DNA of 41,793 nucleotides from a virus. Below the pieces are notes generated by a model. It saw only the letters and a list, made by a program, of their open reading frames with translations, had not been told where the DNA came from and searched no databases. Location: the IMG/VR virus record IMGVR_UViG_3300032954_000037, positions 1 through 41,793 of that record; one strand, 5' to 3'. Position 1 is the first letter of the stretch; each line of letters opens with the position of its first letter. A program made the translations under genes and the position numbers. Of the stretch, positions 6,185 to 37,085 are shown piece by piece.

Positions 6185-6198
6185 AGGAGACAAAAACG

Positions 6199-6914
<716 letters not shown>

Positions 6915-6918
<4 letters not shown>

Positions 6919-7303: not shown

Positions 7304-7979
<676 letters not shown>

Positions 7980-7983
<4 letters not shown>

Positions 7984-20012: not shown

Positions 20013-21260
20013 GTGCCAAACACATTTGCATTTCCGCAGTGGGTTTCGATGGAAGCCCTGCGGTTATTGCTCAACAAGCTCGAAGTCGTTTCGGTGTTCA
20101 ACACGGAATGGCAGAAGGAATTCGAGCAGGAATTTCCCATCGGTTCGGTGGCGCAGGTCAAGATTCCGCAGCGCTTCACGATCCGCGATGGACTGGGCTA
20201 TAACCCGCAGCCGATCAACCGCCTCACCACGACCGTAAACTGCAACCAGATCATGGGCGTGGACTTCGAGTGGGATGACTTCGAGCAGGCTCTGAACATG
20301 GAGCGCTCGAAGGAAGAGATTCGCCGGCAGTATCTTGAGCCCGCCGTCGCGCAAATGGCTCAGGAAACCGATTCTCGCGCCGCGCAGTTCGCCTATCAGA
20401 ACACCAACAACATCGTGGGCGTGCTAGGGCAGGACCCGAACACAGTCACGACATTCGCACAAGCACGGCAGAGATTGTTCGAGCTGGCGTGTCCTCCGGG
20501 CGGTGGGAAGGCGCTTTGCATTCCGCCTCAATTCTCAACTTCGATGGTGCCCGCCCTGCAAACCTTGCTGAACCCGCAGGATGACATCTCGAAGCAATTC
20601 AAGGAAGGCTCTCTCGGCAAGCTCCACGGGTTTGACGTATACGAGTGCATGTCACTCTGGCGTCACACTTGCGGAACCGTGGCGGGCGCTTTCACGGTCA
20701 ACACGGGGAACGCGAACAACGGCGGCAACCAGATCGGCGTAAACTTGACGGCTGGCGATACGATCAATGCAGGCGACGTAATCTCCATCGCCAACGTAAA
20801 CCAGGTCAACCCGATGACGCGGCGCTATCTCTCGCTGGTGCCGAAGCAGTTCGTCGTGCTCCAACCATTGGTTGCAGCAGGCGGCGGCGCGGCAGCGGAT
20901 TACCTGATTGTTTCCCCGGCCATCTTCGGGCCCGGCTCCCAGTACCAGAACGTGGACGCTCTGCCCGGAAACGGCGCGGCGGTCACGGTATTCCCCGGCA
21001 CGGCAGCCCCGAACGGGAAGTCTTCCGCTCAGGGGCTCGTGATCCACGGCGATGCGTTCGCATTCGTTGGCGTCAAGCTCGAAGAGCCGCGCGCCACGGA
21101 AATGACGACGCAGACCCGCGACCCGGAAACAAGGGCTGCGGTTCGGTTCGTTCGCATGTGGGACCCAGTTCAAGCCAAAATGATTAACCGTTGGGACAGC
21201 GTATTCGGGTTCGGCCAGCTCTACGCGGATTCGTGCGCCGTTCGAGTTCTTGGCGCGTGA
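20013..21260 (+). CDS. P22-type major coat protein, 415 aa
   Basis: HK97-fold coat of the P22 class, about 415 copies per T=7 shell. Seen: the N-terminal MEALRLLLNKLEVVSVFNTE, the GSVAQVKIPQRFTIRDG strand, a helix AQMAQETDSRAAQFAYQN, and a Gly/Asn-rich insertion around residues 220-270 where P22 coat has its I-domain. It ends with EMTTQTRDPETRAAVRFV then RWDSVFGFG, the P-domain and final strand typical of the family. GTG start three bases after the scaffold stop; coupling likely. Confidence 0.92.
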   Translation: MPNTFAFPQWVSMEALRLLLNKLEVVSVFNTEWQKEFEQEFPIGSVAQVKIPQRFTIRDGLGYNPQPINRLTTTVNCNQIMGVDFEWDDFEQALNMERSKEEIRRQYLEPAVAQMAQETDSRAAQFAYQNTNNIVGVLGQDPNTVTTFAQARQRLFELACPPGGGKALCIPPQFSTSMVPALQTLLNPQDDISKQFKEGSLGKLHGFDVYECMSLWRHTCGTVAGAFTVNTGNANNGGNQIGVNLTAGDTINAGDVISIANVNQVNPMTRRYLSLVPKQFVVLQPLVAAGGGAAADYLIVSPAIFGPGSQYQNVDALPGNGAAVTVFPGTAAPNGKSSAQGLVIHGDAFAFVGVKLEEPRATEMTTQTRDPETRAAVRFVRMWDPVQAKMINRWDSVFGFGQLYADSCAVRVLGA

Positions 21261-21268: not shown

Positions 21269-22138
21269 ATGAACAAAACACTCAAGAAAATCGCATTTGG
21301 TTTGTTTCTCGCGCTAGTCGCGCTGGCGCTTCCGTCTCTGTCGCAAGCCCAGCAGAACTATCTCATCCAGACCACGCTGACCGCAGCGGTTCCGGCTCCT
21401 GCGTCTCTGAATCTTGCGGCTCCCGTGCCTTACTCGGGAGTTTCCGTGGCATCCAGCACGGGAATCTCGGGCATTCTGGGCAACCAGACCGCGACGATCA
21501 ACCAGCAAACCTCGTGGCAGATTTACGTGGACCGCGAACTTATGCAGGTCGTTCAGGTCAACGGCAACGTGCTACAGGTGCAGCGCGGCGTCGGTGGAAC
21601 CGTGGCAACAGCCCACGCATCCGGGGCAATGGTTCTCGCCGGCCGCGCTTACTGGTTCAACGTCTCAGATCCGGGGGTTTCCTCGACTCCGCAAGGAACG
21701 AACGCTCCGGCGAACTCGCCCTGCGTTCTTGCCAACGTGATCGCTTCCCCGTGGGTCAACGTCCGTTCCGGCAATCAATGGGTCTGCAATCCGAACTCAT
21801 TGACGTGGCAGGCTGGCTTCGGGAGCCCGTACATCGCGCAGAATTCCGCGATGGCGACGGTCGCTTCGGTGGCTGGCGCGACGAACGTCTCGTTCCCCAC
21901 GATCAAGATTTCCGGAACGAACGCCATTACGTCTTGGACGTTCACCGGAAACGGGGCGATTGGGGTCTGCGGAGTGGCTACGGCCAATTCCTGCATGACT
22001 TCATTCTCAGTGATTCCGACTGGAACATGGACAACCACGGCGACAAATAATATCGGCGCAGTTATCAGCGCCGTTGTTGGACAAGTCCAAGTATGGAATT
22101 GGAACGCCGTTGATGGTAAATGGTACGTGCAACCATAA
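21269..22138 (+). CDS. Exported virion-region protein with Sec signal peptide, 289 aa
   Basis: The start at 21269 gives a textbook signal peptide: K3, K6, K7, a 14-residue hydrophobic core (FGLFLALVALALP), and cleavage after SQA (residue 27) leaving Gln. The rest is beta-rich and Ala/Val/Thr-rich, with a segment like VDRELMQVVQVNGNVLQVQR that recurs in phage head-decoration or fibre proteins. The C-terminal GQVQVWNWNAVDGKWYVQP is typical of a beta-strand ending. It lies directly after coat, so a decoration role fits, but a signal peptide on a virion protein is odd. Confidence 0.7.
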   Translation: MNKTLKKIAFGLFLALVALALPSLSQAQQNYLIQTTLTAAVPAPASLNLAAPVPYSGVSVASSTGISGILGNQTATINQQTSWQIYVDRELMQVVQVNGNVLQVQRGVGGTVATAHASGAMVLAGRAYWFNVSDPGVSSTPQGTNAPANSPCVLANVIASPWVNVRSGNQWVCNPNSLTWQAGFGSPYIAQNSAMATVASVAGATNVSFPTIKISGTNAITSWTFTGNGAIGVCGVATANSCMTSFSVIPTGTWTTTATNNIGAVISAVVGQVQVWNWNAVDGKWYVQP

Positions 22139-22153
22139 ATAGGAGAAACGCGA

Positions 22154-22405
22154 ATGCAGGTATGTGCATCTCTTTGGGCCACGTTCAACGGAGCAACGGG
22201 AGCAGGCGCAATTGCTCTCACGGGTGCTCAGGTTGGCGACATAGTTTCTTTGGTGTACAGATTCGGAGCATCTCAACAGGGCGGCATGGAAGCTTCTTTT
22301 GAGACAACCATTTCTGTTGCCGAAGAAATTCAGCAAACAGACGCCACCGATCTAAGCGGATTGACGCTTGGAGTACTTTTGCTTCGGCCAATCACCACAA
22401 CTTAA
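22154..22405 (+). CDS. Small virion-region protein, 83 aa
   Basis: Site TAGGAGAAACGCG then ATG. Beta-rich and Ala/Gly-rich (TGAGAIALTGAQVGDIVSLV), then an acidic C-terminal half. Not recognised; likely a minor structural or fibre-associated protein from its place in the coat operon. Confidence 0.65.
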   Translation: MQVCASLWATFNGATGAGAIALTGAQVGDIVSLVYRFGASQQGGMEASFETTISVAEEIQQTDATDLSGLTLGVLLLRPITTT

Positions 22406-22413
22406 CGCTTCGA

Positions 22414-22434
22414 GGGCTTGAGCGAATCAAGCCC
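22414..22434 (+). promoter_or_regulatory. Perfect 8-bp hairpin between virion genes
   Basis: GGGCTTGA-GCGAA-TCAAGCCC, without a following T run. It could stabilise or process the message between the 83-aa and 151-aa genes, or act as an attenuator. Confidence 0.55.
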
Positions 22435-22455
22435 CACACATTCTAAGAGGGTGCC

Positions 22456-22911
22456 ATGACGCAAATAGCGACAGTCGTAAACCCGAACATTTCGCAGGGT
22501 CCGCACGGCATTGGCGCACGCAACGCGGGCGGCGTCTACGCCCAAGATAACCAGCAGGACATCATCGACACCGACTGTTTTCAAGGTCCGGTTACTCTGC
22601 TGTCAGGCACTACCGATGCGATCCCGGCCCACCAAGGTGGCAATTTCATCATCAAGACCGGGCAAGCGGATGCGATCACCGCTTCGGCACCCACGGCTGG
22701 CGTGGATGACGGGCTGACGCTGGCCATCTATTCCGACACAGCCTTCGCCCATACGGTGACTTTCAGTTCGAACTGCATCGCTGACGGGTCCGCCGGTGGC
22801 CCGCATCACATCGTCACTTTCACCACGGGCTATCGCGGGCAGGGAGTTTTGCTCCGCGCGTTCAACGGAACTTGGCAGCTCATGGGCAACACGGGCTGCG
22901 CGATCACTTAA
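22456..22911 (+). CDS. Virion-region protein, 151 aa
   Basis: Site AAGAGGGTGCC then ATG. Beta-rich with a GGNFIIKTGQADAITASAPT stretch and GLTLAIYSDTAFAHTVTFSS, a pattern found in phage decoration and fibre-like proteins. Ends NTGCAIT. No signal peptide. Likely a capsid or tail accessory protein; exact role unknown. Confidence 0.65.
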   Translation: MTQIATVVNPNISQGPHGIGARNAGGVYAQDNQQDIIDTDCFQGPVTLLSGTTDAIPAHQGGNFIIKTGQADAITASAPTAGVDDGLTLAIYSDTAFAHTVTFSSNCIADGSAGGPHHIVTFTTGYRGQGVLLRAFNGTWQLMGNTGCAIT

Positions 22912-22921
22912 GGAGAATTGA

Positions 22922-23263
22922 ATGTCGAATACTCAAAACGACGCGGCATTGCTGGAAGCCGCTCGCAGGATCATCGCGGCGCATCAGACGGTGCAACGTC
23001 CGGAGGGCTTGCCGCGCGAGCATCACGGGCCTCTCGATCCGACTTACGTGCGTCCTCCGGCGACGGAATTCCCGAAGGTGAGCTACAAGGCCAGCGACAA
23101 GGACCCGCGCGGCTACATCACCAAGACAGTCAACTCGAAGGCCGAGGAAGATAAGCTCGCAAAAGGCTGGTCGCGGACGCTCGCGGAAATGAACGCCATT
23201 CTCGATCCGATTGCCAAGCGGCAATATGCGAGCGAAGAGGAACTGGTAACTCAGGAGAAATAG
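22922..23263 (+). CDS. Hypothetical protein, 113 aa
   Basis: Preceded by AAGGAGAATTGA. Helical, with EHHGPLDPTYVRPPATEFPK in the middle and a basic segment SDKDPRGYITKTV. Not recognised. It ends with the ribosome site (CAGGAG) of the broken start at 23265. Confidence 0.65.
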   Translation: MSNTQNDAALLEAARRIIAAHQTVQRPEGLPREHHGPLDPTYVRPPATEFPKVSYKASDKDPRGYITKTVNSKAEEDKLAKGWSRTLAEMNAILDPIAKRQYASEEELVTQEK

Positions 23264-23264
23264 C

Positions 23265-23285
23265 CATGGGGTTCAAATGTGTCTA
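23265..23285 (+). pseudogene. Severed gene start: ATG with ribosome site, stop after six codons
   Basis: AGGAG lies eight bases before ATG 23265, as good as any in the operon, but the frame reads MGFKCV and stops. The minus-strand HNH gene ends here (23273). I infer this was the original start of the downstream tail gene, cut off by the HNH insertion. Confidence 0.5.
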
Positions 23286-23773
23286 AATCTGCCGAAAGAA
23301 TCGCGTGGCAATGGCTGCCTTGTTTTCCAGCTTTCGGATATTTTCTTGCGATGTTCGGGAGACAATTTGCCAGTTTGAGTCTTGTTTTTCTGAGATTCCT
23401 TCGGTGTGGCCCAGCGGCAATTTTCTGGTTCATAATTTCCGTCGTTGTTAATGCGGTCGATCCACGTCCCGATAGGCCTTTCTCCCATGTCGGACAGAAA
23501 ATTCTTAAAATCATCCCACCGGTCGCATATTGCAATTCCGCGCCCGCCGTATCTGTAAAAAGAAGGATTGTTCGGATTCCGACATCGATCCCTCATGCTC
23601 TTCCAAGTGCTATAGGTTCGATTCCCTCTGCGACTCTTTCCGTGCGTACCATTAAAACTGTGATGCCCGAGAATGAACTTGAAATGCTGGCCTTTAACCC
23701 ACCCGTACTTCGCGGACGAATGTTTCGCTACTTTCGTTTTTCTGCCGCATCCGCATTGGCAAAGGCCGTCCAT
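23273..23773 (-). CDS. HNH homing endonuclease, opposite strand to the virion operon, 166 aa
   Basis: Conserved phage HNH family: N-terminal CQCGCGRKTKVAK and KFILGHHSF, then WKSMRDRCRNPNNPSFYRYG, GRGIAICDRWDDF, and ERPIGTWIDRINNDGNYEP with ENCRWATPKES. The RIxxDGxYxPxNCRW core is the catalytic site. It is the only minus-strand gene among the virion genes. It abuts the tail-fibre gene head to head, and a TATAAT on the minus strand (23791-23796) could serve its own promoter. Clearly a selfish insertion. Confidence 0.9.
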   Translation of the reverse strand: MDGLCQCGCGRKTKVAKHSSAKYGWVKGQHFKFILGHHSFNGTHGKSRRGNRTYSTWKSMRDRCRNPNNPSFYRYGGRGIAICDRWDDFKNFLSDMGERPIGTWIDRINNDGNYEPENCRWATPKESQKNKTQTGKLSPEHRKKISESWKTRQPLPRDSFGRFRHI

Positions 23774-25243
23774 GTGTGCGTTTCTGCTCTATTATACATG
23801 GTTCTTGTTTCGCTATCCCCGGGTTGCTTACAGGCCCAAGGTTTTAGGATTGAGCCCTCCCCGGTGTCGTCTTCCCTTACTTCGCCGGGTGTTTTGAGTA
23901 CCCTACAGGCCACTGTGCACCTATGCGCATATCCGAATAACGCTGTTCCCTGCAGCAATTTAGCTCAAACTTATAGTGACGCGACCCTGACAACGCCATG
24001 CTCACTTTCCACGCAAGTCGTCCTTGACGGAACCAATAGCTGCGTCGCGCAGACTGACACGCGGGGGAATTTTGGCTTCTGGGTCGCGGCGGGCACCTAC
24101 ACCTACACCCTCACGATTAGCACAGGCCAATCCTTCGGGCCTTTTTACTGGAGCGTTGGGATTCCAGCCGGCTCGACCGTCACAGGTCCATTCACGGTCA
24201 ACGGAACGCTACTCGTGACAAGCCTTACCACTGGCCGCTGTGTCCAAACGACGGGCACGGCCCCGAACATTTCTCTCGTCTCAGCTAGCGGGCCTTGTGG
24301 AACGTCCACTGGCACGCTTACAGCTACGGGCAGTCCAGTTTCATCCGATTGCGGGTTTTTCAGCGCCCCAACGTCCCTGACCGGCACGGCGAACTGCACT
24401 TATGCAAGCGCTTCGGGGTTTGTCCAGACACAGGGCGCGAACAACACGGACGCCTTTGAGATTCTGCGCTTCACCGATTCATCTCCAACTGGCAATTTCC
24501 TGCACTTCCGAAACGCGGCCAACAACGCGGACCTATTCACTCTTGGCGTGAACGGCGCGGCCACTTCCGCAACTTCATTCATTGCCCCAGTTTTCCAGTC
24601 ATCTTCCGCGAATCCATCGGCCACCGGGATTTTCCGTCTCGCTTCCGGTGATAGCTTGAATTTCAGGAACGCAGCGAACAGCGCCGACATCGCCTTTGCC
24701 AAGAATGGGAGTGACCAGCCCACTTTTAACGGGAATATTCTGCCGACGATCAACGGAGCGGTCACAAACGGCCATTTAGCGACGTTCGCCAACTCGGGCC
24801 AGATTCAAGACGGCGGCGCGGCAGCCGTGATCCCGACGCTCTCGACTGCCTCCATGAGCGGAACTGTGGCGCTGACGGGTGGCGTGCTGACGAGCCTTGC
24901 GTCGGGCGGGATGACGATCACTGTCACGATGCCCGCAAGCGGCTGCCCTTGCCGCGTACAAGTGCCCTATACATTTACCTGGAACGCTGCGAGCAACGCG
25001 AACGTAGACGGAATTGTTACGGATGGCTCTAATTCCTTCGGGCCTTGCGAGGCGACGATTGCTTTCAACGGAACATGGACCGGGTGCAGCGCTTCGTACT
25101 TTTCGCCGGTCACTTACTCGAATGGCGCGAATGTGACGTTCACGGTCGAAGCGCAGTCCAATGCCAATAGCACCGTGGAAGCTGGGCAGCAAAGAGCAGG
25201 ATTTCCAAACGGAATGCAGGTTTTGGTGTTCACAGCGAACTAG
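23720..25243 (+). CDS. Tail-fibre-like protein with signal peptide, about 507 aa
   Basis: From ATG 23720 there is an n-region (R3, R6, K15), a core SALLYMVLVSLSP, and a likely cut after LQA leaving Gln (residues 37-39). No ribosome site precedes it, and these first codons lie antisense to the start of the HNH gene; GTG 23774 or ATG 23798 are alternatives. The mature part is beta-rich and Cys-rich, with a collagen-like-free stem of repeats: FRNAANNADLFTLGVNG, then GIFRLASGDSLNFRNAANSA. A related repeat occurs in the 32249 protein. The C-terminus is a compact Cys-containing sandwich. Likely a fibre or head-fibre. Confidence 0.7.
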   Translation: MFRYFRFSAASALAKAVHVCVSALLYMVLVSLSPGCLQAQGFRIEPSPVSSSLTSPGVLSTLQATVHLCAYPNNAVPCSNLAQTYSDATLTTPCSLSTQVVLDGTNSCVAQTDTRGNFGFWVAAGTYTYTLTISTGQSFGPFYWSVGIPAGSTVTGPFTVNGTLLVTSLTTGRCVQTTGTAPNISLVSASGPCGTSTGTLTATGSPVSSDCGFFSAPTSLTGTANCTYASASGFVQTQGANNTDAFEILRFTDSSPTGNFLHFRNAANNADLFTLGVNGAATSATSFIAPVFQSSSANPSATGIFRLASGDSLNFRNAANSADIAFAKNGSDQPTFNGNILPTINGAVTNGHLATFANSGQIQDGGAAAVIPTLSTASMSGTVALTGGVLTSLASGGMTITVTMPASGCPCRVQVPYTFTWNAASNANVDGIVTDGSNSFGPCEATIAFNGTWTGCSASYFSPVTYSNGANVTFTVEAQSNANSTVEAGQQRAGFPNGMQVLVFTAN

Positions 25244-25245
25244 CC

Positions 25246-26070
25246 ATGCCCAACGTACCACAGGTTCCAGCAAACAATCCGATTCCGCCGGCTCCGAATA
25301 CCGTCCAGCAAGTTTGCATAAATGCGCTCTACGAAATAAATGTGGTGGCGCCGGGCGAGAATCCCGATCCGCTCGAACTCGCATTCGTTCTCTCGAAGTT
25401 CAACCAGCTCTCAGACTCGTGGAGCACGCGCGCCGAGAAGATTTTCGCTCTCGACCTGATTAGCGTCTCGCCCATCACGAACAATCCATTCCTGCTCGTT
25501 CCGGGCCTTGATCCGCACACGATTGGACCGCCCCCGATTGGCGCGGCGCCTATTCCCACATATCAGGTTGTCGGTGAGCGGCCCGTCCGCATCCGCAACA
25601 TCAACGTGCTGCTCAACAACGTGAGCCCGGTCGTGCGCTATCCGTTGCAAAAGCGTGACTCTGATTGGTGGGCGACCAATCGCGTACAGACGATCCAGAC
25701 CAGTCTGCCCACGGATTTCTACTATCGCCCCGACTGGCCGGTTGGCTCTATTTTCCTGTGGCCTGTTCCGAACTACGCCTACGGCCTCGAAATTGAGATC
25801 GAGACATTCCTGAACGGTTCCGCAACTCTTGCGACGGTGTTTGCATTCCCACCGGGCTATGAGTTGGCGATCACGCTGACACTTGCAGAACTGATTTGCC
25901 CGGCATTTGAGAAGCCTCCAAATCAGATTTTGGTCGCAGCCGCAGCGCAAGCGCGTCAAGCAGTTGCGGGATTGAACGCACCTCCACCGCGAATCAATCT
26001 CTCGGACTTCCGCTCAACGACGGACAGGCCGCGAGCCAGCTTTAATTATCGAACGGGGTATGACACGTAA
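25246..26070 (+). CDS. Head-to-tail adaptor, P22 gp4-like, 274 aa
   Basis: The N-terminus CINALYEINVVAPGENPDPL then ELAFVLSKFNQLSDSW resembles the connector proteins (gp4 of P22, gp16-type) that bind below the portal and seal DNA in. The middle has TDFYYRPDWPVGSIFLWPVP, seen in tail adaptor proteins of other podoviruses. It is followed by the gp10-like gene, the same order as in P22. Longer than P22 gp4 (166 residues), so an extra domain is present. Confidence 0.75.
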   Translation: MPNVPQVPANNPIPPAPNTVQQVCINALYEINVVAPGENPDPLELAFVLSKFNQLSDSWSTRAEKIFALDLISVSPITNNPFLLVPGLDPHTIGPPPIGAAPIPTYQVVGERPVRIRNINVLLNNVSPVVRYPLQKRDSDWWATNRVQTIQTSLPTDFYYRPDWPVGSIFLWPVPNYAYGLEIEIETFLNGSATLATVFAFPPGYELAITLTLAELICPAFEKPPNQILVAAAAQARQAVAGLNAPPPRINLSDFRSTTDRPRASFNYRTGYDT

Positions 26071-27626
26071 TGGCGCGCTTCTCATTTATCGGCCCCTCTT
26101 ACGCCAGTCAGAGCTTATCGGCAGACTGCCAAGTCACGCGCAATTGGTACGTCGAGACGATTGAAAATAACGGCAAGGTCGCGCAGGCTCTTTATCCCAC
26201 ACCCGGTAAAAGCCTTCTCGTTACGTTGCCCGGCGGCCCTATTCGCGGGCAAGTAGAAATCAACGGGCGAGCCTTCGCTGTCTCCGGCCCCAATTTCTGC
26301 GAAGTTTTTGCGAACGGAACATCGAACACTATCGCGCAGGTGGCGAATGACCTGCTCCCCGTTTCGATGGTTTGCAGTCCGCAGCAGCTTTTGCTCGCCT
26401 GTGGCGGGAATCTCTATTGCTACCAGCTCCAGACGCAGCAAAACGTGGGAATCGGCACGGGCATCGCGGGAACATTCAACCAGATTCCTAACGCGAATTT
26501 CTCTCTGCCGAGCGGTGCGAATGGAAACCCGATTCAGGTCGAGTACATCGACGGATTTTTCTTGGTGCTGCTCGCCAACTCTCAGGTGATCTATATCTCG
26601 CAGCCTCTCGATGCGACGACATGGCCTCCGCTGCAAAAACTGATCGTTTCGGTGTTCTCAGACAACGTGCAGAGCATCATTCAGAACAACCGCAGACTCG
26701 CAGTGCAGGGCCGCAAGCGCTCGACGGTCTATTACGACTCAGGCAGCGCCAACATCTTCGATGTGGACCCGAGCGGAACTATTGAGAATGGCTTGTGCGC
26801 TCCATTTGCTCGCGGCCGACTCGATAACTCGATTATCTGGCTCGATCAAGACGAGCATGGATTGGGGATCGCGCGCCGGAACTCAGGCTATACGCCCGTC
26901 CGCATCAGCAATCACGCGATTGAGTTTGCGATGCAGGGTTATCCGACGATTTCCGATTGCGTCGTTTATACCTATCAGGATCAAGGACACTCCTTCGCGG
27001 TTTTCACGTTCCCGACCGCGCAAAAGACGTGGGTGTACGATGTGGCCACGGGCCAGTGGCATGAGCGCGCCTACTGGAACACGGGAACCGGAACATTCTC
27101 GGCTGACAAGGCGCAATATCACATGCTCGCCTTCGGAATGCACCTTGTTGGCGATCCGGGCAGCGGAAATATCTACCAGATGGCGATTCCGTCCGCGAAT
27201 GGCGGTGGTTGGAACTTCGTCACCGACAACGGCAATCCCATTCGCCGCGTTCGTCGCGCGCCTCACGTTGGATTCGAATTCAAGCGCGTGTACTTCAACG
27301 AGTTGAATATCGATGTAGAGTCCGGCTTAGGGCCGATTCCTCCGCTGCAAGACGGAGCGGGAAACAATCGTGATCCGGTCATGATGCTCCGCTGGTCGAA
27401 GGACTATTCAAAGACATGGAGCAACGAGTACGAATTGACCTGCGGTCAGGCCGGAGATTTCAGAAGGCGCGTGCGCAAGTCTAAAATCGGTAGTTCAAAG
27501 ACGGGCATGGTGTTCGAGGTTTCCGTCACCGACCCCATTCCGTGGCGCATCACCGAAGCGTATCTGGACGCGACGAACTTTCAGGCGCAAGAGCGTCTAG
27601 CCAAGCAGTACGCGAGGGTTAGCTGA
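26070..27626 (+). CDS. P22 gp10-like tail (packaged DNA stabilization) protein, 518 aa
   Basis: Family features: an N-terminal MARFSFIGPSYASQSLSADC then QVTRNWYVETIENNGK, GGPIRGQVEINGRAFAVSGP in the first strand set, and a WD-like beta-propeller through FFLVLLANSQVIYISQPLDA. Near the end is SKDYSKTWSNEYEL. P22 gp10 forms the hexameric tube linking gp4 to the needle and tailspikes. Length is close to P22 gp10 (472). Coupled to both neighbours by one-base overlaps. Confidence 0.9.
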   Translation: MARFSFIGPSYASQSLSADCQVTRNWYVETIENNGKVAQALYPTPGKSLLVTLPGGPIRGQVEINGRAFAVSGPNFCEVFANGTSNTIAQVANDLLPVSMVCSPQQLLLACGGNLYCYQLQTQQNVGIGTGIAGTFNQIPNANFSLPSGANGNPIQVEYIDGFFLVLLANSQVIYISQPLDATTWPPLQKLIVSVFSDNVQSIIQNNRRLAVQGRKRSTVYYDSGSANIFDVDPSGTIENGLCAPFARGRLDNSIIWLDQDEHGLGIARRNSGYTPVRISNHAIEFAMQGYPTISDCVVYTYQDQGHSFAVFTFPTAQKTWVYDVATGQWHERAYWNTGTGTFSADKAQYHMLAFGMHLVGDPGSGNIYQMAIPSANGGGWNFVTDNGNPIRRVRRAPHVGFEFKRVYFNELNIDVESGLGPIPPLQDGAGNNRDPVMMLRWSKDYSKTWSNEYELTCGQAGDFRRRVRKSKIGSSKTGMVFEVSVTDPIPWRITEAYLDATNFQAQERLAKQYARVS

Positions 27627-27868
27627 TGAATTCCGTGCCAGTCCAACGTCCTCCGGCCAGCCCAAAGGACATCGATCAGAACTTCCTGACGAATTGGTAC
27701 GCCAGCATCCGCGCGCCGGGCTCGACCGTTTCACCGCCCGCGAACTCAACGTCTGCGGGAGTGTTCGGGCAAATGGCTTTGGATGCGAATTACGTGTATT
27801 TCTGTGTTAAAACTGGCAGCACGCAAGGGATGGCAACGTGGAAAAGAATTCCCCTGAATCCGTTTTGA
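27626..27868 (+). CDS. Hypothetical protein, 80 aa
   Basis: TGATG junction with gp10-like gene. Pro/Ser-rich linker, then FGQMALDANYVYFCVKTGST and KRIPL at the end; this GxMAxDxNYVYxxxxxGxWKRIPL pattern occurs in fibre-associated modules of other phages. Its last 31 bases overlap the ACP frame. Confidence 0.65.
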   Translation: MNSVPVQRPPASPKDIDQNFLTNWYASIRAPGSTVSPPANSTSAGVFGQMALDANYVYFCVKTGSTQGMATWKRIPLNPF

Positions 27869-28068
27869 AGGCGATGATCGCAGCACAGTCGGGGCTGGCG
27901 TTCGATGAGGTCAACATCCTCACAAAGCTCAACGAATTGGGCCTAGACTCGCTGGAATTTGTCGATCTGATGATGACAATTCGGGACGAATTCAAGGGAT
28001 TTGCGATGCCCGAGAGCGAATGGCACACGCTGGACACCGTTGGAGACATTTTGAGGGCTATTAATTGA
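27838..28068 (+). CDS. acp: Acyl carrier protein, 76 aa
   Basis: Correct length for ACP with the 4'-phosphopantetheine site at Ser38 in ELGLDSLEFVDLMM, matching the (D/A)SLE/D motif. It is acidic, with a helix IRDEFKGFAMPESE and a fourth helix near TVGDILRAI. ACPs carry acyl chains as thioesters after modification by a host phosphopantetheinyl transferase. GTG start with AAGGGATGG upstream. The next gene, a GNAT transferase, starts inside its stop (TTGA). A free-standing ACP among virion genes is unusual. Confidence 0.85.
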   Translation: MEKNSPESVLKAMIAAQSGLAFDEVNILTKLNELGLDSLEFVDLMMTIRDEFKGFAMPESEWHTLDTVGDILRAIN

Positions 28069-28523
28069 ACCCGACGTTCCACGTAGAGCAGTGGTCTGAC
28101 GCTATTGGCGAGTTGCGCCCGCTTTTCTCCCTGCTTTGGGACGATGTGGCGGTCGATAAAGACCGCTTCGTGGCCAAGTGCGAAGAGGCTAAATATGAGG
28201 CGCTCGAAAAGGCCGGTGCGCTATGCGTCACGACGATGCGCGTGGATGGGAAGATCGCTGGATATTACGTCGCACTCATCATCGCCAACCCGCACTACGA
28301 AGGCCAGGGCCTCATGGCCTACACGGACATGTACTTCATGCTTCCCGAGTTTCGGATCGGAAATCTCGGGATGAAGCTCTTCGCATTTTCTGAGAAGACT
28401 TGGCGCGAACGCGGGGCGGTGAAGGCGTATTCGTCCCACAAGCTGCACCGAGACAGAAGCAAGATGATGCTCGCTTTAGGCTGGAAGCCCACTGATTTGA
28501 TTTATTCGAAGGTGCTCGCGTGA
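28065..28523 (+). CDS. GNAT-family N-acyltransferase, 152 aa
   Basis: Fold landmarks: CVTTMRVDGKIAGYYVALI (strand 2-3), AYTDMYFMLPEFRIGNLGMK (strand 4 and the acyl-CoA loop; R-x-x-N-x-G instead of the usual R-x-x-G-x-G), then HKLHRDRSKMMLALGWKPT (C-terminal strand). GNATs of this type are frequent in phages, with unknown targets. Because it is coupled to an ACP, the donor could be acyl-ACP rather than acetyl-CoA; this is inference. The stop overlaps the ejection-protein start. Confidence 0.85.
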   Translation: MNPTFHVEQWSDAIGELRPLFSLLWDDVAVDKDRFVAKCEEAKYEALEKAGALCVTTMRVDGKIAGYYVALIIANPHYEGQGLMAYTDMYFMLPEFRIGNLGMKLFAFSEKTWRERGAVKAYSSHKLHRDRSKMMLALGWKPTDLIYSKVLA

Positions 28524-29365
28524 GTACGGTGGCCATAGCCAGTATCGCTGCGGCGGGAATTGGAGCCGCTGGAAGTATCGCCGCCGGAAGCGAGCAGGAA
28601 AGTGCGTCCGAGAGCGCCGCGCAACTCCAAGCGCAGGAAGCTCAGAATGCTCTGAATTTCCAAGAACAGGAATTCAACACCGAGCAGCAGAATATGGCTC
28701 CGTGGCTGAAGGCGGGCGGAAACGCCATCACCACACTCGCCAACGATCTTAATGCGACTCCCGGCACAACCACTTCGGAGAATATTGGGGGCGTCAATTA
28801 CAACCTCCAAACGGGCAATGGTGGTCTGCTTGAACCGTGGAACAATGAATTCGTCGCTCCGACCGCTGCCGAGGCTGCACAGACTCCCGGCTACGAGTTC
28901 ACGCTCGGGCAGGGCGAACAAGCCCTTCAAAATTCAGCTGCGGCAAGCGGGGGATTGCTCAGCGGCGGCACGGCTAAAGGGATTGCGGATTATGCCGAAG
29001 GGCTCGCCGACACGACATATCAGCAGACCTATCAGAACGCTTTGCAGCAGTACGAAACGGCCTACAATCAATTCCAGAATAACCAGACGAACACGTACAA
29101 TCGCCTATCTGGGGTATCTGGAGCTGGACAGACGGCCGCAACGAATCTCAATCAAGAAGGTCAAGCTGCGGCGAACAATGTATCGAGCACGTATCTCACG
29201 ACGGGCGCGCAGCAAGGGCAGGATATTCAGAACGCGGCTGCGGCCACAGCTAGTGGCTACGCTGGCGCTTCGAATGCAGCGAGCGGCGCGATCACGAATA
29301 TCGGACAGCTTTTGACTTTGCAGCAGCTTCTCGCAGGACAGACCGCACAGGTGGCGGTGAGCTAA
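28520..29365 (+). CDS. Ejection (DNA transfer) protein, 281 aa
   Basis: The N-terminus is a glycine-alanine membrane-like helix (VAIASIAAAGIGAAGSIAAG), as in P22 gp7-like injection proteins. The middle has PGYEFTLGQGEQALQNSAAA, then LADTTYQQTYQNALQQYETA and NQTNTYNRLSGVSGAGQ. These belong to a widespread podovirus family released with the DNA to form a channel. First of three ejection-type genes. Confidence 0.85.
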   Translation: MSTVAIASIAAAGIGAAGSIAAGSEQESASESAAQLQAQEAQNALNFQEQEFNTEQQNMAPWLKAGGNAITTLANDLNATPGTTTSENIGGVNYNLQTGNGGLLEPWNNEFVAPTAAEAAQTPGYEFTLGQGEQALQNSAAASGGLLSGGTAKGIADYAEGLADTTYQQTYQNALQQYETAYNQFQNNQTNTYNRLSGVSGAGQTAATNLNQEGQAAANNVSSTYLTTGAQQGQDIQNAAAATASGYAGASNAASGAITNIGQLLTLQQLLAGQTAQVAVS

Positions 29366-30939
29366 TGGCCAGTATCCCACTTCCGGCACTCGACATTCGT
29401 CCTCCCGAGAACCCTCTGGACACCTACGCCAAAGCCCTGTCTGTGAAGTCGATGTTGCAGGGACAGCAGACACAACAACTTGAGCAGCAACAAGCACGTC
29501 TTGGGATTCAGCAATCTCAAACTGCTCTCGCGGACCAAAAAGCGATGACTTCCGCGATGACGGAATGGGATGGAAAAGACCCGGATAATTTGCCAAGTCT
29601 GGTCCTAAAAAATGGAGGCTCTGCGAACGCCGTTTTCAATGTCCGCAAGCAGCTTCTCGATCAGAAGAAAACTCTTTCTGACATCGCTGCCGCAGACGCG
29701 ACGACGAACTCGAAGAATCTCGAATCGCTAAAAACGCGCAACGACCAGATTGCGGGGAGTCTTGAAACCCTGACTGACGTTTCCGATGACAAGCTGCCCG
29801 TAGAGGCGAAGCGCACCGTAAACGGGATGGTGGCCGACGGATTGATCGACTCGAATCACGCGCAGGAGCTTGGCGCATTCATAGACTCCAACGCCACAAA
29901 TCCGCAGGCGCTCCGGCAAGGGATCGACCATTACGCCAAAATGCACATGGGCTATTCGGCCCTTGCGGATCAGGCACAGAAGAGTTCCGAAGTGTATAAG
30001 AACGTGCAGCAAGGCAATCTCGCCAAAGCGGAGGCCATGCAAAAGGGCTCACCGCTCACGGCGATGGAGCAAGACCCGACTTGGTTCACGCCTGAAAAGC
30101 TGCCAGCCACAATTGCCTATCTGCAATCAAAGTCCGGTGACACGTCCGATCCTGTGAACCAGGCGCGCGCGACACGCTTGCTCGGCATCGCTGAGGTTTC
30201 AAAGCAGCAGCAGCTTGCGATGGATTATTCAAAGAAAGCGAACGATCAGGCCATTCAAGACGGTGATCCGATTGCGGCGGCGAAACTTCTCGTGGACGGC
30301 ACTGTCGCTCCATCGCAAATCATTTCAGCTCGTAAGCCGGAATTCGCGCAGAAGGCGTTCACCGCAGCCGCGCAGATGCAACCGGGATGGACCGCGCAAA
30401 CTGCGGATGCTGATTTCAAAGTTGCCAGCTCTCCCGCAAACGTCGCGTTCTTTGGCTCCGCGAAGTCGCTGATTGATAAGGGTGGCACTTTGGATCAGCT
30501 CGCAGCGGCGGCCAAAGACATTCCTGACGGCAAGATTCCGGTTTTCAATAACATCATGGATGCGGCAAAGGCCGCAGCGGGAAGCGGGCCGATTGCGAAA
30601 TATGCCTCTATCCTGCTCGGCGTGACAGATGACTATGCAAAGGTCATGGGCGGCGGCGTAGGAACCGATTCGGGGCGCACTCAAGCCCTTAGTCTTGCCC
30701 CAGCGCAGGCGAGCCCCGAACAACGCGCAGCCGCCATTGAAGGAATCAGGGGCTCAGTCACTTCGCAGCTTAATTCGCGCATCGGCAGCAATCCGGTCAT
30801 GCGGAAGATGTACGGCGACAATATGGCCCCGACTGTTCAGAAACCGCAGCTCCAAGTTGGCCAGCAGGTAAAGCTCAAGAACGGGCAAATCGTGACAGTG
30901 GGGACAATTCATCCTGACGGAAGCTGGGACCCGAAATAA
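29365..30939 (+). CDS. Ejection-type internal virion protein, 524 aa
   Basis: Helical, Gln/Ala-rich protein of the size and place of P22 gp20/gp16. The N-terminus has RPPENPLDTYAKALSVKSML followed by a Gln-rich coil, common in podovirus ejection proteins. The C-terminal 40 residues are a small beta unit (VGQQVKLKNGQIVTVGTIHP), an SH3-like fragment. TGATG-like junctions on both sides. Confidence 0.8.
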   Translation: MASIPLPALDIRPPENPLDTYAKALSVKSMLQGQQTQQLEQQQARLGIQQSQTALADQKAMTSAMTEWDGKDPDNLPSLVLKNGGSANAVFNVRKQLLDQKKTLSDIAAADATTNSKNLESLKTRNDQIAGSLETLTDVSDDKLPVEAKRTVNGMVADGLIDSNHAQELGAFIDSNATNPQALRQGIDHYAKMHMGYSALADQAQKSSEVYKNVQQGNLAKAEAMQKGSPLTAMEQDPTWFTPEKLPATIAYLQSKSGDTSDPVNQARATRLLGIAEVSKQQQLAMDYSKKANDQAIQDGDPIAAAKLLVDGTVAPSQIISARKPEFAQKAFTAAAQMQPGWTAQTADADFKVASSPANVAFFGSAKSLIDKGGTLDQLAAAAKDIPDGKIPVFNNIMDAAKAAAGSGPIAKYASILLGVTDDYAKVMGGGVGTDSGRTQALSLAPAQASPEQRAAAIEGIRGSVTSQLNSRIGSNPVMRKMYGDNMAPTVQKPQLQVGQQVKLKNGQIVTVGTIHPDGSWDPK

Positions 30940-32249
30940 TGCCGCAAGGTACGTACACCCTCGATGACGTAGCACCGCAGTCAGCGGCTCCGGCACAGGC
31001 TGGAAAGTATTCCGCCGATGACATTGCGGATGCGTCGCCGCCTGCAGAGCGCACATGGCTTGACTCGGCGGGAGATTTCGCAAAGGGATTGTGGTCGCAG
31101 GTGAACCCGATCACCGGAGTAAAGGGACTGGCGCAAGCCACATCTCACCCGATCCAAACTTACATGGCCGATGCGGGCAATCGACAGGAGATTCTCGATC
31201 AAGCAGAAGAAGATTTCAAATCCGGAAACTACGGGCGCGGCGTCGTGCGTTCACTTTACGGAATCATCCCATTTCTCGGTCCACAGATGAATCAGGCAGG
31301 CACGGATATTGGGACAGGGAAGGTGGCTCAGGGCCTCGGGGAAAGCATCGGTATGGGCCTTTCGATGACTCTGCCTTCAAAGATCGGCGATGTTACCAAA
31401 TTGACTGGCCCGCTTGATACCGAAGCTGCGGCGACGCGCTGGTATCAAAGCGCCCTGAAACCTTCTACTACGGCAAATCCCGCGAAGGTTGCGAACGCTA
31501 TCAGCGGAGGACTTGAAAACGCCATTCCGATCAGTAAAGGAGGATTGGAAAAGCTAGCCGATCTGACCGACGATCTGAATTCCAAGATTGCAGCGGAGAT
31601 CGCTAGTCGTCCGAACGCTCCGATCAACAAATTCGCAGTTGCTTCTCGCTTGGGCGACACCGCGAAACAGTTCTCAACGCAGGTGAACCCGATTGAAGAT
31701 TTGAATGCCATCGGCAAGAGCGGGAACGAGTTTCTCGAAAACCAGCCCGTCGATATTCCTGCTTCACAGGCGCAAGCCCTGAAACAGGGGACCTACAAAC
31801 AACTGAGCGGCCGCGCCTACGGGGAATTGGGCAGCGCCACAATCGAATCTCAGAAAGCTCTCGCGCGCGGCTTGAAAGAAGAGCTGGCAAACGCTTTCCC
31901 TGAACTCAGCGATTTGAATGCGCAAGACTCAAAACTTCTCGATTTGCAAGGGATGCTCCAGCGAGCGGTGAATCGGATCAGCAATCACCAAATGGTGGGC
32001 ATCGGAACGCCGATCATGGGCGCTGGCGTGAAGGCGGCAACGGGAAGCACGGGAATCGCTGGGGCGGCTGCATTGGCGAAGGCTGTCTTTGACGATCCAT
32101 ACATCAAGTCACAAGTGGCAATCGCACTGAACAAGGCATCCAAGGGTGGTATAACGATTCCTACGGCTGCTGCGAGATATGCGGGATACGTGAACGCGCT
32201 CGGGAACGTCTCCACTTCTCCAAGCCCCGGCGATCAAGGAAGCCAGTGA
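30939..32249 (+). CDS. Third ejection-type virion protein, 436 aa
   Basis: The N-terminus has two short repeats (GTYTLDDV and GKYSADDI), typical of phage internal proteins. After that come helices with a Gly-rich membrane-like segment near VVRSLYGIIPFLGPQMNQAG and another near the end (GAGVKAATGSTGIAGAAALA). In other phages this is sometimes a transglycosylase, but I see no Glu-based motif. With the two preceding genes it makes the usual set of three. Confidence 0.75.
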   Translation: MPQGTYTLDDVAPQSAAPAQAGKYSADDIADASPPAERTWLDSAGDFAKGLWSQVNPITGVKGLAQATSHPIQTYMADAGNRQEILDQAEEDFKSGNYGRGVVRSLYGIIPFLGPQMNQAGTDIGTGKVAQGLGESIGMGLSMTLPSKIGDVTKLTGPLDTEAAATRWYQSALKPSTTANPAKVANAISGGLENAIPISKGGLEKLADLTDDLNSKIAAEIASRPNAPINKFAVASRLGDTAKQFSTQVNPIEDLNAIGKSGNEFLENQPVDIPASQAQALKQGTYKQLSGRAYGELGSATIESQKALARGLKEELANAFPELSDLNAQDSKLLDLQGMLQRAVNRISNHQMVGIGTPIMGAGVKAATGSTGIAGAAALAKAVFDDPYIKSQVAIALNKASKGGITIPTAAARYAGYVNALGNVSTSPSPGDQGSQ

Positions 32250-33526
32250 TGAAGCGAACGACGTATATGGCGCAGAGGGCGATTAGAATAACGTCAATCA
32301 TTTCGGCGATGATAGCGCTTTTTTGCGCCTTTTGCACGCCTTCACAAGCCCAAGTGCCTGTAGCCTTGATGCCTGATCCGCGCCCGCAGTTTTTCCTTCC
32401 CAATGGAACTCCGAACGCTGGCGGATGCCTTTTCTTTTTTGCGGCGGGGACCAGCACTCCAGCTCCAACCTATACAGATAGTTCCGGGCAATTTTTGAAC
32501 ACAAATCCCCTGATCTTGGATAGCTCAGGGTATGCCACGGTCTACCTGGCGAACAGTTCGTACAAGATAGTGGAGTACAGTTCGGGTGGAACCAACTGCG
32601 CCGCGGGAATACAGATTTGGAGCGCCGACAACGTAAACGCCTTCCAAATCGTCAACGGCTCACAGACGATCATTTTCGCCGGAGTGACATCCTACCCGAG
32701 CGGCTCACTTGGCGAAGTCGTTTATCGCACCGATCTTGGCTCGCTTTGCCTCTTTAACTCAGCGTGGGGATGCCTCGCCAACCTCAACTCAAATAACGTG
32801 TTCGCTGGCCTCACGACGCTGAACGGTGGGACATTCAACGGGAATTACGCGGGCAGTCCGAATTTCTCGGCGGGAGCAACTGGAACGTATTTTGGCAGTT
32901 CGTCAGCCAATTCTGCTGCATCTGGAGTGTTTCGCCTGGCGTCTGCTGACGTTGGCCCTTGCTGGCGCAACAACCTGAACAGCGCCGATCTGTGCATTTC
33001 GAAGAACACGAATGACCAGTTCTCGTTTCCGACCGCATTTCTGGCGATACCGCCGATCATTGGGAACCAGACTCCGAACACAATCTATACCTCGACACTG
33101 AACGTGACAGGGCCCATCGCGGAGATCAATGGAGTGCCCACGAGCGGGCCAAATGGTGTGCCGGGTATCTTCGGCCTGTCGAACAACACGGCGCAGGTAG
33201 CGAACATCACGAATCAGAGTTTGGTCGCGGTGCCGACGAGCGGCCTCTATCGCGTATCTTGCTACGAAATCGTGACCACGCCGGGCACAGTCAGCTCGAC
33301 GCTTCCGAACTGCGTTATCAACTACACCGACGAGGACAACAACGTCGCGCAGACGGTGACGGTTGCCACGGGCGGTGGAGGAAACACCACGACCACGCTC
33401 GCTCAGGGAACGGCTGTCATCAACGCTAAATCCACGTCCGCGATTACATTTTCAACGACGGGCTACGCGACCAGCGGAGCAACGACGATGCAATACGCGG
33501 TTCGCGTGAGAGTCGAGGGGATTTGA
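32249..33526 (+). CDS. Tail-fibre or tailspike protein with signal peptide, 425 aa
   Basis: AAGGA lies eight bases before ATG 32249. Signal peptide: K2, R3, R10, R13, a core IISAMIALFCAFC, and a cut after SQA (residue 34) leaving Gln. The mature N-terminus PDPRPQFFLPNGTPNAGGCL, then FFFAAGTSTPAPTYTDSSGQ, is the adaptor domain seen at the start of many podovirus tail fibres. Repeats SSSANSAASGVFRLASAD match the 23720 protein. The C-terminal domain is a beta sandwich (YEIVTTPGTVSSTLPNCVIN) like receptor-binding tips. Confidence 0.85.
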   Translation: MKRTTYMAQRAIRITSIISAMIALFCAFCTPSQAQVPVALMPDPRPQFFLPNGTPNAGGCLFFFAAGTSTPAPTYTDSSGQFLNTNPLILDSSGYATVYLANSSYKIVEYSSGGTNCAAGIQIWSADNVNAFQIVNGSQTIIFAGVTSYPSGSLGEVVYRTDLGSLCLFNSAWGCLANLNSNNVFAGLTTLNGGTFNGNYAGSPNFSAGATGTYFGSSSANSAASGVFRLASADVGPCWRNNLNSADLCISKNTNDQFSFPTAFLAIPPIIGNQTPNTIYTSTLNVTGPIAEINGVPTSGPNGVPGIFGLSNNTAQVANITNQSLVAVPTSGLYRVSCYEIVTTPGTVSSTLPNCVINYTDEDNNVAQTVTVATGGGGNTTTTLAQGTAVINAKSTSAITFSTTGYATSGATTMQYAVRVRVEGI

Positions 33527-36216
33527 TGAAAAAACTACTCTTTCTTTTCTTGCTCTGCGCACTCCCGGCGTTCGGGCAGCGCAACTATTCCAATCCTCTC
33601 GGCGCGAATCTCAGCGTGCAGGACGCCGGAACCTGCTCAACCACGGGCAGCTTTGCATGGCAGTCTCTTCCGACGAACGCGGGAACGACGACCGTAAACC
33701 TCGCGGGGACATTCAACGCCACCGTGACGATCCGCGAGTCGAACAATGGCGGCGGAACCTGGACGACAGCAACGACTTTGGCGGCTGCGGGAACCAGCAC
33801 TTTCAGCACGAATGGATTCACCGATCTGTGCGCGGACGTGACGACCTATTCAAGTGGAACGATCAACGTAACGATCACAACGGGCATTCTTCAGGTGCAG
33901 AGTATCGTCACTACTGGGGGCGGAAGCTCCGTCACCGGGATAGATCAGCTACCCCAAGCTAATCTGATGGCTGACTATCAGTTCCTTGCTGGTGAATCTC
34001 CTTGCTCTGCCCCGGACCACTCTGGCAAAAATCAGAATGTTACCGGCTGCGTTGGAGTCTCCCCCACGATCCAATCCACAACGGGAGGCTTAAGTCTTGT
34101 AGGCACGGGCGCGCTGAGCGTTCCTGCATCTCTCAATTCGGCCCTCTCCGCTCTGGCTTACGTCTGCTTTCAGCCCGGAGGTTTGACGCAAGCCGCGCAG
34201 CCGATCATTCAAGGAAACAATGGAGCATCCACATCAATCACTTGGGAGCTTTATCAGAACACGGCCTCGGATCCCTGGGGCAATGCGATCACTGGGAACT
34301 ATCGCTTCCGCACGCTTTCAGTGGGAAACACGTTCAAATCTTCCTCGGTGGACGCTTTTGCCGGTTGCGGAGTGATCGCGGTTTCTTTTGATTCAACGGA
34401 CCGTTTCTGGATCAACAACCAAGAAGTTCTGTATGCCCAGACCTTCACTTCGGCGGGACTGCAGACGGCAGGGAATTATCAGATCGGCGGCGTGTCCGGC
34501 GCGTACTCCACGATGACGATCTACGAACTGGCGTTTTACAGTTCGGTTCTTACGACGCAATCCGAAGCTCAGGCATCGCAGTTTATGAACTCGTTCGCGG
34601 CAACCCGGACCGCGTTCAATTCGAATCAAAATGCGCCCACGCAATTCCTTTCGACCACTTATCCGACTGACTCGAATAATCAGCTCGTGTGCCTCGGAGA
34701 TTCACTCACGGCGGCAGGCGTTACGTACTGCAATTCTCTGACGGGAGTTGGGCAGCCCGGAAGTGCAGCGCAGCCTTACGCCAGCACGTTCCTGTTCAAT
34801 ATTTCCGATCAGGGATTGAGCGGGGCTGGAACTAAAATTCTGAACGTAACCGCGAATCACGTCGCGGGGACGCTCTATCGTCCACAGGCGCTCGCCAACG
34901 TGTTCCCCTTGTGGGCCGGGACGAACGACAACAACGCCAACATCAGCCTCCCGAACCTTCGCGGGGAGTGCGGGCAAATCCGAAGCTGGGGAGGCAAATG
35001 TCTCCTGCTCACAATGATTTCCCGCACGGGAGAGGATGTCACCAAGAACCAGCTTAATAATTCTCTGCGCACCCAGTGGTCCTCTTTTGCTGATGGTCTA
35101 GTGGACGTGGCGCAGAATGCGAATCTCGGAGCGGATGGGGCAAGTGCAAACGCGACGTATTTCAGCGATGGCGTTCACCTGACTGCCACAGGCAACGCCT
35201 TAGTCGCCGGTATGGTGCGCCGGGGAGTCAATCGCATGGTGGGAAACACTCCTCAGACTCCCCTGACTATACCACCTCAGTTTCAAAACTTGAACTATGT
35301 GACGGCGACATGTGGCGCAGGTGCCTCTTGTGCTGCTCCTTCCATCACCGTGACGGCGGGCGATCTTCTTTTCGTTGTCTGCGCAGGATTCAGCGGAGGA
35401 ACGACGTTCAACCTTCCGACAGATTCAAAGACTCAGACATTCGTGTCCGTGGCCGCAAATGCCTACATCGGCGGAGCGGTCGCGGCGTTTCAGGCATTCT
35501 ATTTCCCGAATGCGGCTTCGGGCGCAGATGTCGTCACTTGTAACAACTCAGCGAGCGTGAGCGGCAGCGTAATCGCGGTAGCTGAATATTCCGGGGTGGC
35601 GACAACCACTCCTCTGGACGCAGCGGCTACAGCATCAGGAGGCACCGCCAACTCGGTGCAGAGTGGAAACGCGACTTCCACAGGCAGTGCTGATTTGGCG
35701 ATCGGGTACGCTGGCAGTCCTTTGGCGGTTTCCTATCAACTCGTTCCACCTCCGGGGACTCTGTTACGGTCCAGCACCGCTACGCCGAATGTTTTGACCG
35801 TGAACGACTACGTTTCAGGAACCGCTGGGGCGTACAACTCGGGAGCATTCGTTCCATCACCAGCGCAAACTGTAAATTATGCAGTGGGCTTCGCTCTATT
35901 CAAGCCTGCCGGAACTCCACTTCTCACCTATACTCTCTCGGATTACGACATCTATTCGCAATGCAACCCAACAGCAGGCAGCACAACGATCACGCTGCCA
36001 GATGCCACGGGCCTGACTGGGCAGGGGTTCACGATCACCAACACGCAGGCCAGCGGAGCCAATACCTGTACGATTGGCACGACAAGCTCGCAGAACATTG
36101 TCAGCTCCGCGGGATCGGCCACGACATTCACGCTCGCCAACGGTACTACAGCGCAGTTTATCAGCGTGCTGACTTCGCCGACGGCGGGCGGCGCGAGCTG
36201 GAGGAAGATACCATGA
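33526..36216 (+). CDS. Exported receptor-binding protein with SGNH hydrolase domain, 896 aa
   Basis: Signal peptide: KK, core LLFLFLLCAL, cut after AFG (residue 17) leaving Gln. Residues about 170-350 look like a LamG/concanavalin-type jelly roll. Residues about 388-560 are an SGNH/GDSL esterase: GDSLT with nucleophile S393, GTND with N467, and DGVHLT with D548 and H551. Next is a beta-sandwich with AEYSGVATTTPLD, a pattern of secreted soil-bacterial proteins. The C-terminus is fibre-like. Probably deacylates a cell-surface glycan during adsorption. The nearby ATG at 33526 shares a base with the previous stop. Confidence 0.85.
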   Translation: MKKLLFLFLLCALPAFGQRNYSNPLGANLSVQDAGTCSTTGSFAWQSLPTNAGTTTVNLAGTFNATVTIRESNNGGGTWTTATTLAAAGTSTFSTNGFTDLCADVTTYSSGTINVTITTGILQVQSIVTTGGGSSVTGIDQLPQANLMADYQFLAGESPCSAPDHSGKNQNVTGCVGVSPTIQSTTGGLSLVGTGALSVPASLNSALSALAYVCFQPGGLTQAAQPIIQGNNGASTSITWELYQNTASDPWGNAITGNYRFRTLSVGNTFKSSSVDAFAGCGVIAVSFDSTDRFWINNQEVLYAQTFTSAGLQTAGNYQIGGVSGAYSTMTIYELAFYSSVLTTQSEAQASQFMNSFAATRTAFNSNQNAPTQFLSTTYPTDSNNQLVCLGDSLTAAGVTYCNSLTGVGQPGSAAQPYASTFLFNISDQGLSGAGTKILNVTANHVAGTLYRPQALANVFPLWAGTNDNNANISLPNLRGECGQIRSWGGKCLLLTMISRTGEDVTKNQLNNSLRTQWSSFADGLVDVAQNANLGADGASANATYFSDGVHLTATGNALVAGMVRRGVNRMVGNTPQTPLTIPPQFQNLNYVTATCGAGASCAAPSITVTAGDLLFVVCAGFSGGTTFNLPTDSKTQTFVSVAANAYIGGAVAAFQAFYFPNAASGADVVTCNNSASVSGSVIAVAEYSGVATTTPLDAAATASGGTANSVQSGNATSTGSADLAIGYAGSPLAVSYQLVPPPGTLLRSSTATPNVLTVNDYVSGTAGAYNSGAFVPSPAQTVNYAVGFALFKPAGTPLLTYTLSDYDIYSQCNPTAGSTTITLPDATGLTGQGFTITNTQASGANTCTIGTTSSQNIVSSAGSATTFTLANGTTAQFISVLTSPTAGGASWRKIP

Positions 36217-37085
36217 AACGTTTAGCATTCCTTATTGCGGCATTCGCATTCCTCTGCTCCAGTGCCCATGCCGCAATAACGCGCAACGGTCCTCCGCTGA
36301 CTCTGGAAGGCAACACGTCGGGCGGCAAGATTGCCCTGCCTGTCGCCGCTGCGGGTGACATCGTTTGGTGCGGTGTGAATCCTCTGTACGGATCAACGGC
36401 AAGCTGCTCTTGCATCGGTGGCACCGCTCACGCGATGGATTCGCAGAGTTTTCATAGTCCGGCAATTTCTTCCTTCATTGTCGAAATGGCCCTGACGGGA
36501 TGCGCCGTGGGTACGGATGTCATCACGATCAGTTCGAACGGCTCTCCCATCGAAGCTACCGTCATAGATATAACCGGGAATCCTTCGATAGACGTGTTTC
36601 TTATGAGCGGGCCTATATCCGTTGTGGCTGGAGGTTCCATTCCGACCGCTTCCCTCATGGCCGGAGCGGGAGATTATTGCCTGTCGTGGGCCACGGATGC
36701 CGCTGGGAATGGCGGTGCAGCACAGGTTCCAGTCGGCAAGGTGGGTAACCCGCCAGTCGCGGTGAACCTATTCTCGCCGGAAGGAAGTCCGAACGACGCG
36801 TACCCGGAGAATTTCTCGGACTACACGCAAAGTTCAGCGGGAACGGTTACTGCTGGCTGGCAATATCAAGGCGCGACGCCAGCCGGAGTTGTGCTGCTCG
36901 CCTGCTTCAAGCCCGCGCCGGTCGTGACGAGCATCCGTCTTTGCAGCACGATCGACGCTACTCAATGCATGAACTTCCCGGCGGGAGTCAGCACGTTTGG
37001 ACTCAATATGTACATCGTAACGAACGGTGTGCAATCTGCTGCCCCGGTGATGACGAGTTCGCTCACAATTCTGCCGAGCCAATGA
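36213..37085 (+). CDS. Exported beta-rich protein, 290 aa
   Basis: ATGA overlap with the SGNH gene. Signal peptide: K2, R3, core AFLIAAFAFLC, cut after AHA (residue 20). The mature part is beta-sandwich-like with 10 or more Cys (CSCIGG; ALTGCAVGTD) and repeats the VAAAGDIVWCG style of its neighbour, so it may be a cofibre or accessory subunit. No enzyme motif. Confidence 0.75.
   Translation: MKRLAFLIAAFAFLCSSAHAAITRNGPPLTLEGNTSGGKIALPVAAAGDIVWCGVNPLYGSTASCSCIGGTAHAMDSQSFHSPAISSFIVEMALTGCAVGTDVITISSNGSPIEATVIDITGNPSIDVFLMSGPISVVAGGSIPTASLMAGAGDYCLSWATDAAGNGGAAQVPVGKVGNPPVAVNLFSPEGSPNDAYPENFSDYTQSSAGTVTAGWQYQGATPAGVVLLACFKPAPVVTSIRLCSTIDATQCMNFPAGVSTFGLNMYIVTNGVQSAAPVMTSSLTILPSQ

Follow-up and report, generated by a model that had tools for sequence, protein, structure and literature searches.

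The fibers of tailed phages are taught to be cytoplasmic products. In the Salmonella phage P22, the tailspike gp9 is a separate, late-added receptor-binding protein of cytoplasmic origin whose sequence opens with the head-binding domain; in vitro, such tailspikes can join otherwise completed particles as the last component. Filamentous phages are known to have virion proteins (pIII and pVIII) with Sec signal peptides, but inoviruses extrude through the membrane, whereas the phage studied here would be a tailed particle for which we propose cytoplasmic assembly. Phages also encode Sec-exported superinfection-exclusion or envelope proteins, as exemplified by Sim of phage P1 and Lom of phage lambda. 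To our knowledge, and unlike the proteins described below, Sim and Lom neither possess a virion-attachment domain nor are the sole receptor-binding candidates of their phages. No report of Sec-exported tail fibers was found in the searchable literature, a scope outside which most subscription papers and every bioRxiv-only preprint fall.

The stretch of DNA that we analyzed (the window; IMG/VR virus record IMGVR_UViG_3300032954_000037, 41,793 nucleotides) represents, as judged from its gene content, a podovirus whose head and portal module is P22-like. Its portal protein is of the P22 type (Pfam PF16510; E = 1.4e-111), and the genes for the portal, the coat, the head-closure protein (Hc3/gp10) and the ejection proteins are arranged in the same order as in the P22 morphogenesis module. 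Genes for ERF and YqaJ recombination proteins are present in the window, and a terminase candidate at position 12390 had no Pfam match. The major coat protein (20013..21260, + strand), which served as the anchor for finding the phage group, has no signal peptide (score -6.6), and the P22 gp10-like head-closure protein Hc3 (26070..27626, + strand; phrog_578, E = 3e-81) is without one as well. A DNA-ejection protein (28520..29365, + strand; phrog_598, E = 2.4e-25) reaches a score of 4.1 and possesses no convincing signal peptide. Unlike the window, P22 contains no gene of at least 90 amino acids that scores as a signal peptide.

The first-pass annotation of this DNA had credited five genes of the virion region, all on the + strand, with Sec signal peptides. 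Their coordinates, reading frames and cut sites proved to be as described, and four of the signals are clear, while that of P2 is weak when taken alone. P1 (21269..22138) consists of a signal peptide (21269-21349) followed by a fiber-like protein of the head or virion surface; P2 (23720..25243) is fiber-like, with a Cys-rich N-terminal module behind its predicted cut site. In P3 (32249..33526) the signal peptide (32249-32350) stands directly before a virion-attachment (head-binding) domain of fibers. P4 (33526..36216) combines a signal peptide (33526-33576) with an 879-amino-acid protein containing a candidate GDSL/SGNH esterase-like domain, and P5 (36213..37085) a signal peptide (36213-36272) with a small Cys-rich protein. 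Gln would follow the cut in four of the five proteins, as had been noted (SQA/QQN in P1, LQA/QGF in P2, SQA/QVP in P3, AFG/QRN in P4), and Ala in P5 (AHA/AIT). The mature parts are Cys-rich, again in agreement with the earlier description, and all have even Cys counts (4, 12, 8, 16 and 8 for P1 to P5).

Signal peptides were scored with a home-made n/h/c log-odds scorer that had been trained on signal peptides of E. coli. The scores were 24.8 for P1, 2.8 for P2, 14.7 for P3 (16.6 if started at the internal ATG at 32267), 21.3 for P4 and 27.3 for P5; all other listed genes of the window scored 4.1 or less. When the first 60 residues of each protein were permuted in 2000 trials, the observed score was never reached for P1, P4 and P5, twice for P3, and in 315 trials for P2, which is chance level. 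The features of predicted Sec and signal peptidase I substrates (a basic n-region, a hydrophobic core of 7-15 residues and a small-x-small cut site) are found in P1, P3, P4 and P5, and in P2 only by way of its homologues. Inspection of the five N-termini disclosed no lipobox (Cys at the cut) of the kind used by signal peptidase II. Misplaced starts or mere chance would suit P2 in isolation but have almost no credibility as a general explanation: the shuffles of the other four proteins reached the observed score 0 to 2 times in 2000, the starts of P3 and P4 overlap the preceding stop codon as TGATG and that of P5 as ATGA, and Shine-Dalgarno-like sequences precede the starts of P1, P3, P4 and P5, in line with the at least three good ribosome sites noted earlier. 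The signals are, moreover, conserved across dozens of phages, as became apparent from the scan of related genomes that the first-pass annotation had suggested. Taken together, the N-termini make it very likely that P1 to P5 are exported via Sec signals.

The start of P2 is doubtful (ATG at 23720 or GTG at 23774) because an antisense HNH endonuclease gene (23273..23773, - strand) overlaps its 5' end and may have rewritten it. This antisense frame (P0006) gave clear matches to HNH families in PHROG (E = 6e-38), though none in Pfam. Homologues of P2 with clean signal peptides are present in four related loci (L009, 24.0; L022, 22.1; L053, 13.4; L008, 10.9), the Cys-rich module can be aligned across the homologues (alignment A7), and in the single acidobacterial genome locus with this module (1/1) it stands behind a signal. 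A predicted structure of the module was set aside as too poor (pLDDT 40).

The phage group, a large assemblage of uncultivated phages from soil, was defined by an alignment of the coat protein (A1), with 80 IMG/VR loci kept. Homologues of P1 occur in 51 of these loci, nearly always immediately behind the coat gene, and 50 of the 51 retain the signal peptide. Forty-seven score above 10; in L017, L022 and L090 the signal is visible but was missed by the start filter or the score. The sole homologue without a signal peptide, that of L068, begins MTTTLTQTTLSAAV, which corresponds to the mature N-terminus of its relatives, has a ribosome site directly upstream of its start and is devoid of every conserved Cys of the family. 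Since its supported sister L071 possesses a P1 with both a signal peptide and four Cys residues, L068 appears to have lost the signal and the Cys residues together. The P3 protein of L071 itself has no signal peptide and no Cys. In the related loci, scores above 10 are reached by 78 of the 452 genes that lie downstream of the coat gene, compared with 7 of 488 upstream genes and 4 of the 238 encoded on the opposite strand; the P value for the downstream-versus-upstream enrichment (Fisher, about 4e-19) is inflated by the kinship of the loci. The AlphaFold model of P1 (pLDDT 86) weakly resembles N-terminal modules of tailspikes and fibers in the PDB (best E = 2e-3, N-terminal part only), and its fold matches phage fiber proteins in BFVD more clearly than PDB entries.

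Cysteine content separates the proteins with and without predicted signals. Among mature proteins of at least 200 amino acids, those with signal peptides contain 1.70% Cys, and 46 have an even count versus 3 with an odd one; this set is dominated by P1 homologues, and without these 12 even and 3 odd counts remain. Downstream proteins without signal peptides contain 0.65% Cys, with 54 even and 50 odd counts. Every full-length mature P1 with a signal peptide has 2, 4 or 6 Cys residues. Cys pairing of the disulfide type in the exported proteins is thus well supported by these counts. This pairing also bears on the possibility that the hydrophobic N-termini, which are conserved, stay uncleaved and either anchor the fibers in the inner membrane for assembly or enter the virion. 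We consider this improbable: paired Cys imply that the protein body lies outside the cytoplasm, the small-x-small cut motifs are conserved and followed by Gln, and homologues without the signal start at the predicted cut.

Residues 45-131 of P3 match phrog_26190 (E = 8.6e-10), and P3 aligns with fibers of Rhodoferax, Shewanella and uncultured podoviruses (alignment A3). The two results point to a homologous attachment domain, which in P3 starts no more than about 10 residues from the cut. Rhodoferax phage P26218 and the allied Xanthomonas, Vibrio and Shewanella podoviruses also possess a homologous head-closure protein, and their fibers share the P3 attachment domain. Unlike P3, however, the P26218-type fibers start with MATLLPEGKQSF and carry no signal peptide: in all nine fibers checked, which have the domain and derive from non-acidobacterial or unassigned phages, the protein begins at the domain, even when every in-frame upstream start was tried. 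An alignment of the P3 signal with Vibrio and Shewanella phages obtained by tblastn was rejected, since the segment in question precedes the annotated start and was not scored as a signal. P3 homologues with signal peptides were found in seven loci (L023, L029, L041, L049, L075, L077 and L091); alignment A3 shows extra Cys residues in most of the signal-bearing attachment domains, and these are absent from most of the signal-free ones. An IMG/VR search with P3 alone returned no relatives. We infer from the domain that P3 is a genuine receptor-binding or surface part of the virion; P1, P2 and P4 probably are such parts as well.

Judging from the relatives, the hosts of the phage group are very probably Acidobacteriota, and an acidobacterial host is most likely for the phage of the window too. 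L091, a relative integrated in Acidicapsa dinghuensis on a contig of 1.16 Mb, carries the portal, P1 (score 17.0), Hc3, P3 (25.3) and a further fiber with a signal peptide (22.0). When about 85,000 species genomes were searched for prophages bearing the coat gene, none turned up. In other acidobacterial genomes the P3 domain stands behind a signal peptide in 5 of 6 loci. Three loci of the coat-defined group (L079, L081 and L088), in which neither a P1 nor a signal peptide on any downstream gene was found, possibly belong to phages of other hosts.

The first-pass annotation had laid weight on the cyclization of Gln at the new N-terminus, an emphasis that our data do not bear out: 9 of 20 signals in an Acidicapsa sample, one of them prophage-borne, are likewise followed by Gln, and since the host's own exported proteins share this feature, it is, as far as this sample reveals, a habit of the host lineage. 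The same feature would be expected if secreted adhesins of the host, one of the readings considered earlier, or secreted host enzymes had been captured together with their signals as cargo genes. We nevertheless regard such an origin as very improbable, given that P1 resembles phage fibers and tailspikes, that P3 has a phage head-binding domain with few matches in acidobacterial genomes (3 of 200 and 4 of 396 genomes), and that the genes are located in the morphogenesis operon.

Two phage isolates of Tunturiibacter resemble the window in possessing runs of fiber, tailspike and virion genes with signal peptides, although their genomes are unrelated to it: Tunturi_2 is a podovirus of 63 kb and Tunturi_5 a jumbo myovirus of 309 kb. 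In Tunturi_5, gp337-342 all carry signals; in Tunturi_2, gp12, 13, 14, 16 and 17 do so with varying strength. As in the window, the large proteins among them are rich in Cys residues of even number; those from the fiber regions that score above 10 contain 20, 20, 34, 18, 6, 14 and 12. The signal peptides of these genes are not mentioned in the paper describing the two phages (PMC11924767). The fibers of two other acidobacterial phages, Tunturi_3 and Tunturi_4, have no signal peptide within the first 50 kb, and the notion that the host forces signal peptides onto fibers was rejected on these grounds. Fibers of P22, Bacteroides phage B40-8 and crAss001 had none in the regions examined.

Residues 389-559 of P4 weakly resemble GDSL/SGNH esterases (PF13472, E = 2.9e-6; 28.3 bits, below the Pfam cut-off of 32.9), and a search of the phage collection with P4 matched only the isolate Tunturi_5 (gp342). 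P5 had no relatives in IMG/VR.

The candidate esterase-like domain of P4 and the strong export signals would both suit proteins acting on the host cell or outside it as superinfection blockers, decoys or released enzymes directed at surface polysaccharides. There is precedent for this among tailed phages in exported superinfection proteins and in the outer-membrane protein Lom of phage lambda (PMC12309495). Such a role is nonetheless unlikely to be the main one. P3 retains its virion-attachment domain, P1 lies beside the coat gene in almost every relative, and L068 and L071 show that versions with and without a signal can replace each other in one gene position. Furthermore, no gene of the window outside P1 to P5 was recognized as a receptor-binding fiber, so that the virion would be left without an obvious receptor-binding protein. 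Superinfection blocking may be an additional role of the exported proteins.

We therefore return to exported fibers that attach to virions. The earlier interpretation is supported in part: that the fiber and receptor proteins are Cys-rich and exported is borne out by the conserved signals, the paired Cys residues and the alignment of the mature N-terminus of P3 with the starts of ordinary fibers. Of the three readings offered by the first-pass annotation, assembly with virions only after lysis is the most fitting, given that P3 retains the attachment domain and that no signal-free fiber candidate was recognized in the window. P1 to P5 would be made with cleavable Sec signals, pass the Sec translocon of the host, be cut by signal peptidase I and fold with disulfide bonds in the periplasm, where the fibers would also trimerize. 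DNA-filled heads would meanwhile assemble in the cytoplasm without fibers and acquire them once the inner membrane fails at lysis. In this scheme we infer cleavage in vivo, folding of trimers outside the cytoplasm and attachment at lysis; export is well supported by sequence, and we consider export combined with attachment the probable course of events. With somewhat greater reserve, we lean toward the view that in at least three unrelated lineages of Acidobacteriota phages oxidized fibers wait in the periplasm and join the heads at lysis, a two-compartment assembly.

If true, an export signal conserved on the receptor-binding proteins of a phage group would alter the model of tailed-phage assembly, and exported fibers would explain the use of disulfides in such phages. 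Fibers tagged with signal peptides would then also mark phages of Acidobacteriota, which rank with the most abundant bacteria of soils. As both Tunturi_2 and Tunturi_5 have been isolated, the idea is directly testable.

Two further features of the window deserve mention. The virion operon includes a gene for an acyl carrier protein (27838-28068; PF00550, E = 3.7e-9) adjoined by one for a GNAT-like acetyltransferase (28065-28523), a pair that is conserved in L008 and L009 and possibly modifies a virion protein. Low-complexity proteins are encoded at 7285-7983 (GYGSGDGS repeats, with a weak match to TrAA12) and at 6088-6918 (ADADAAYA repeats).
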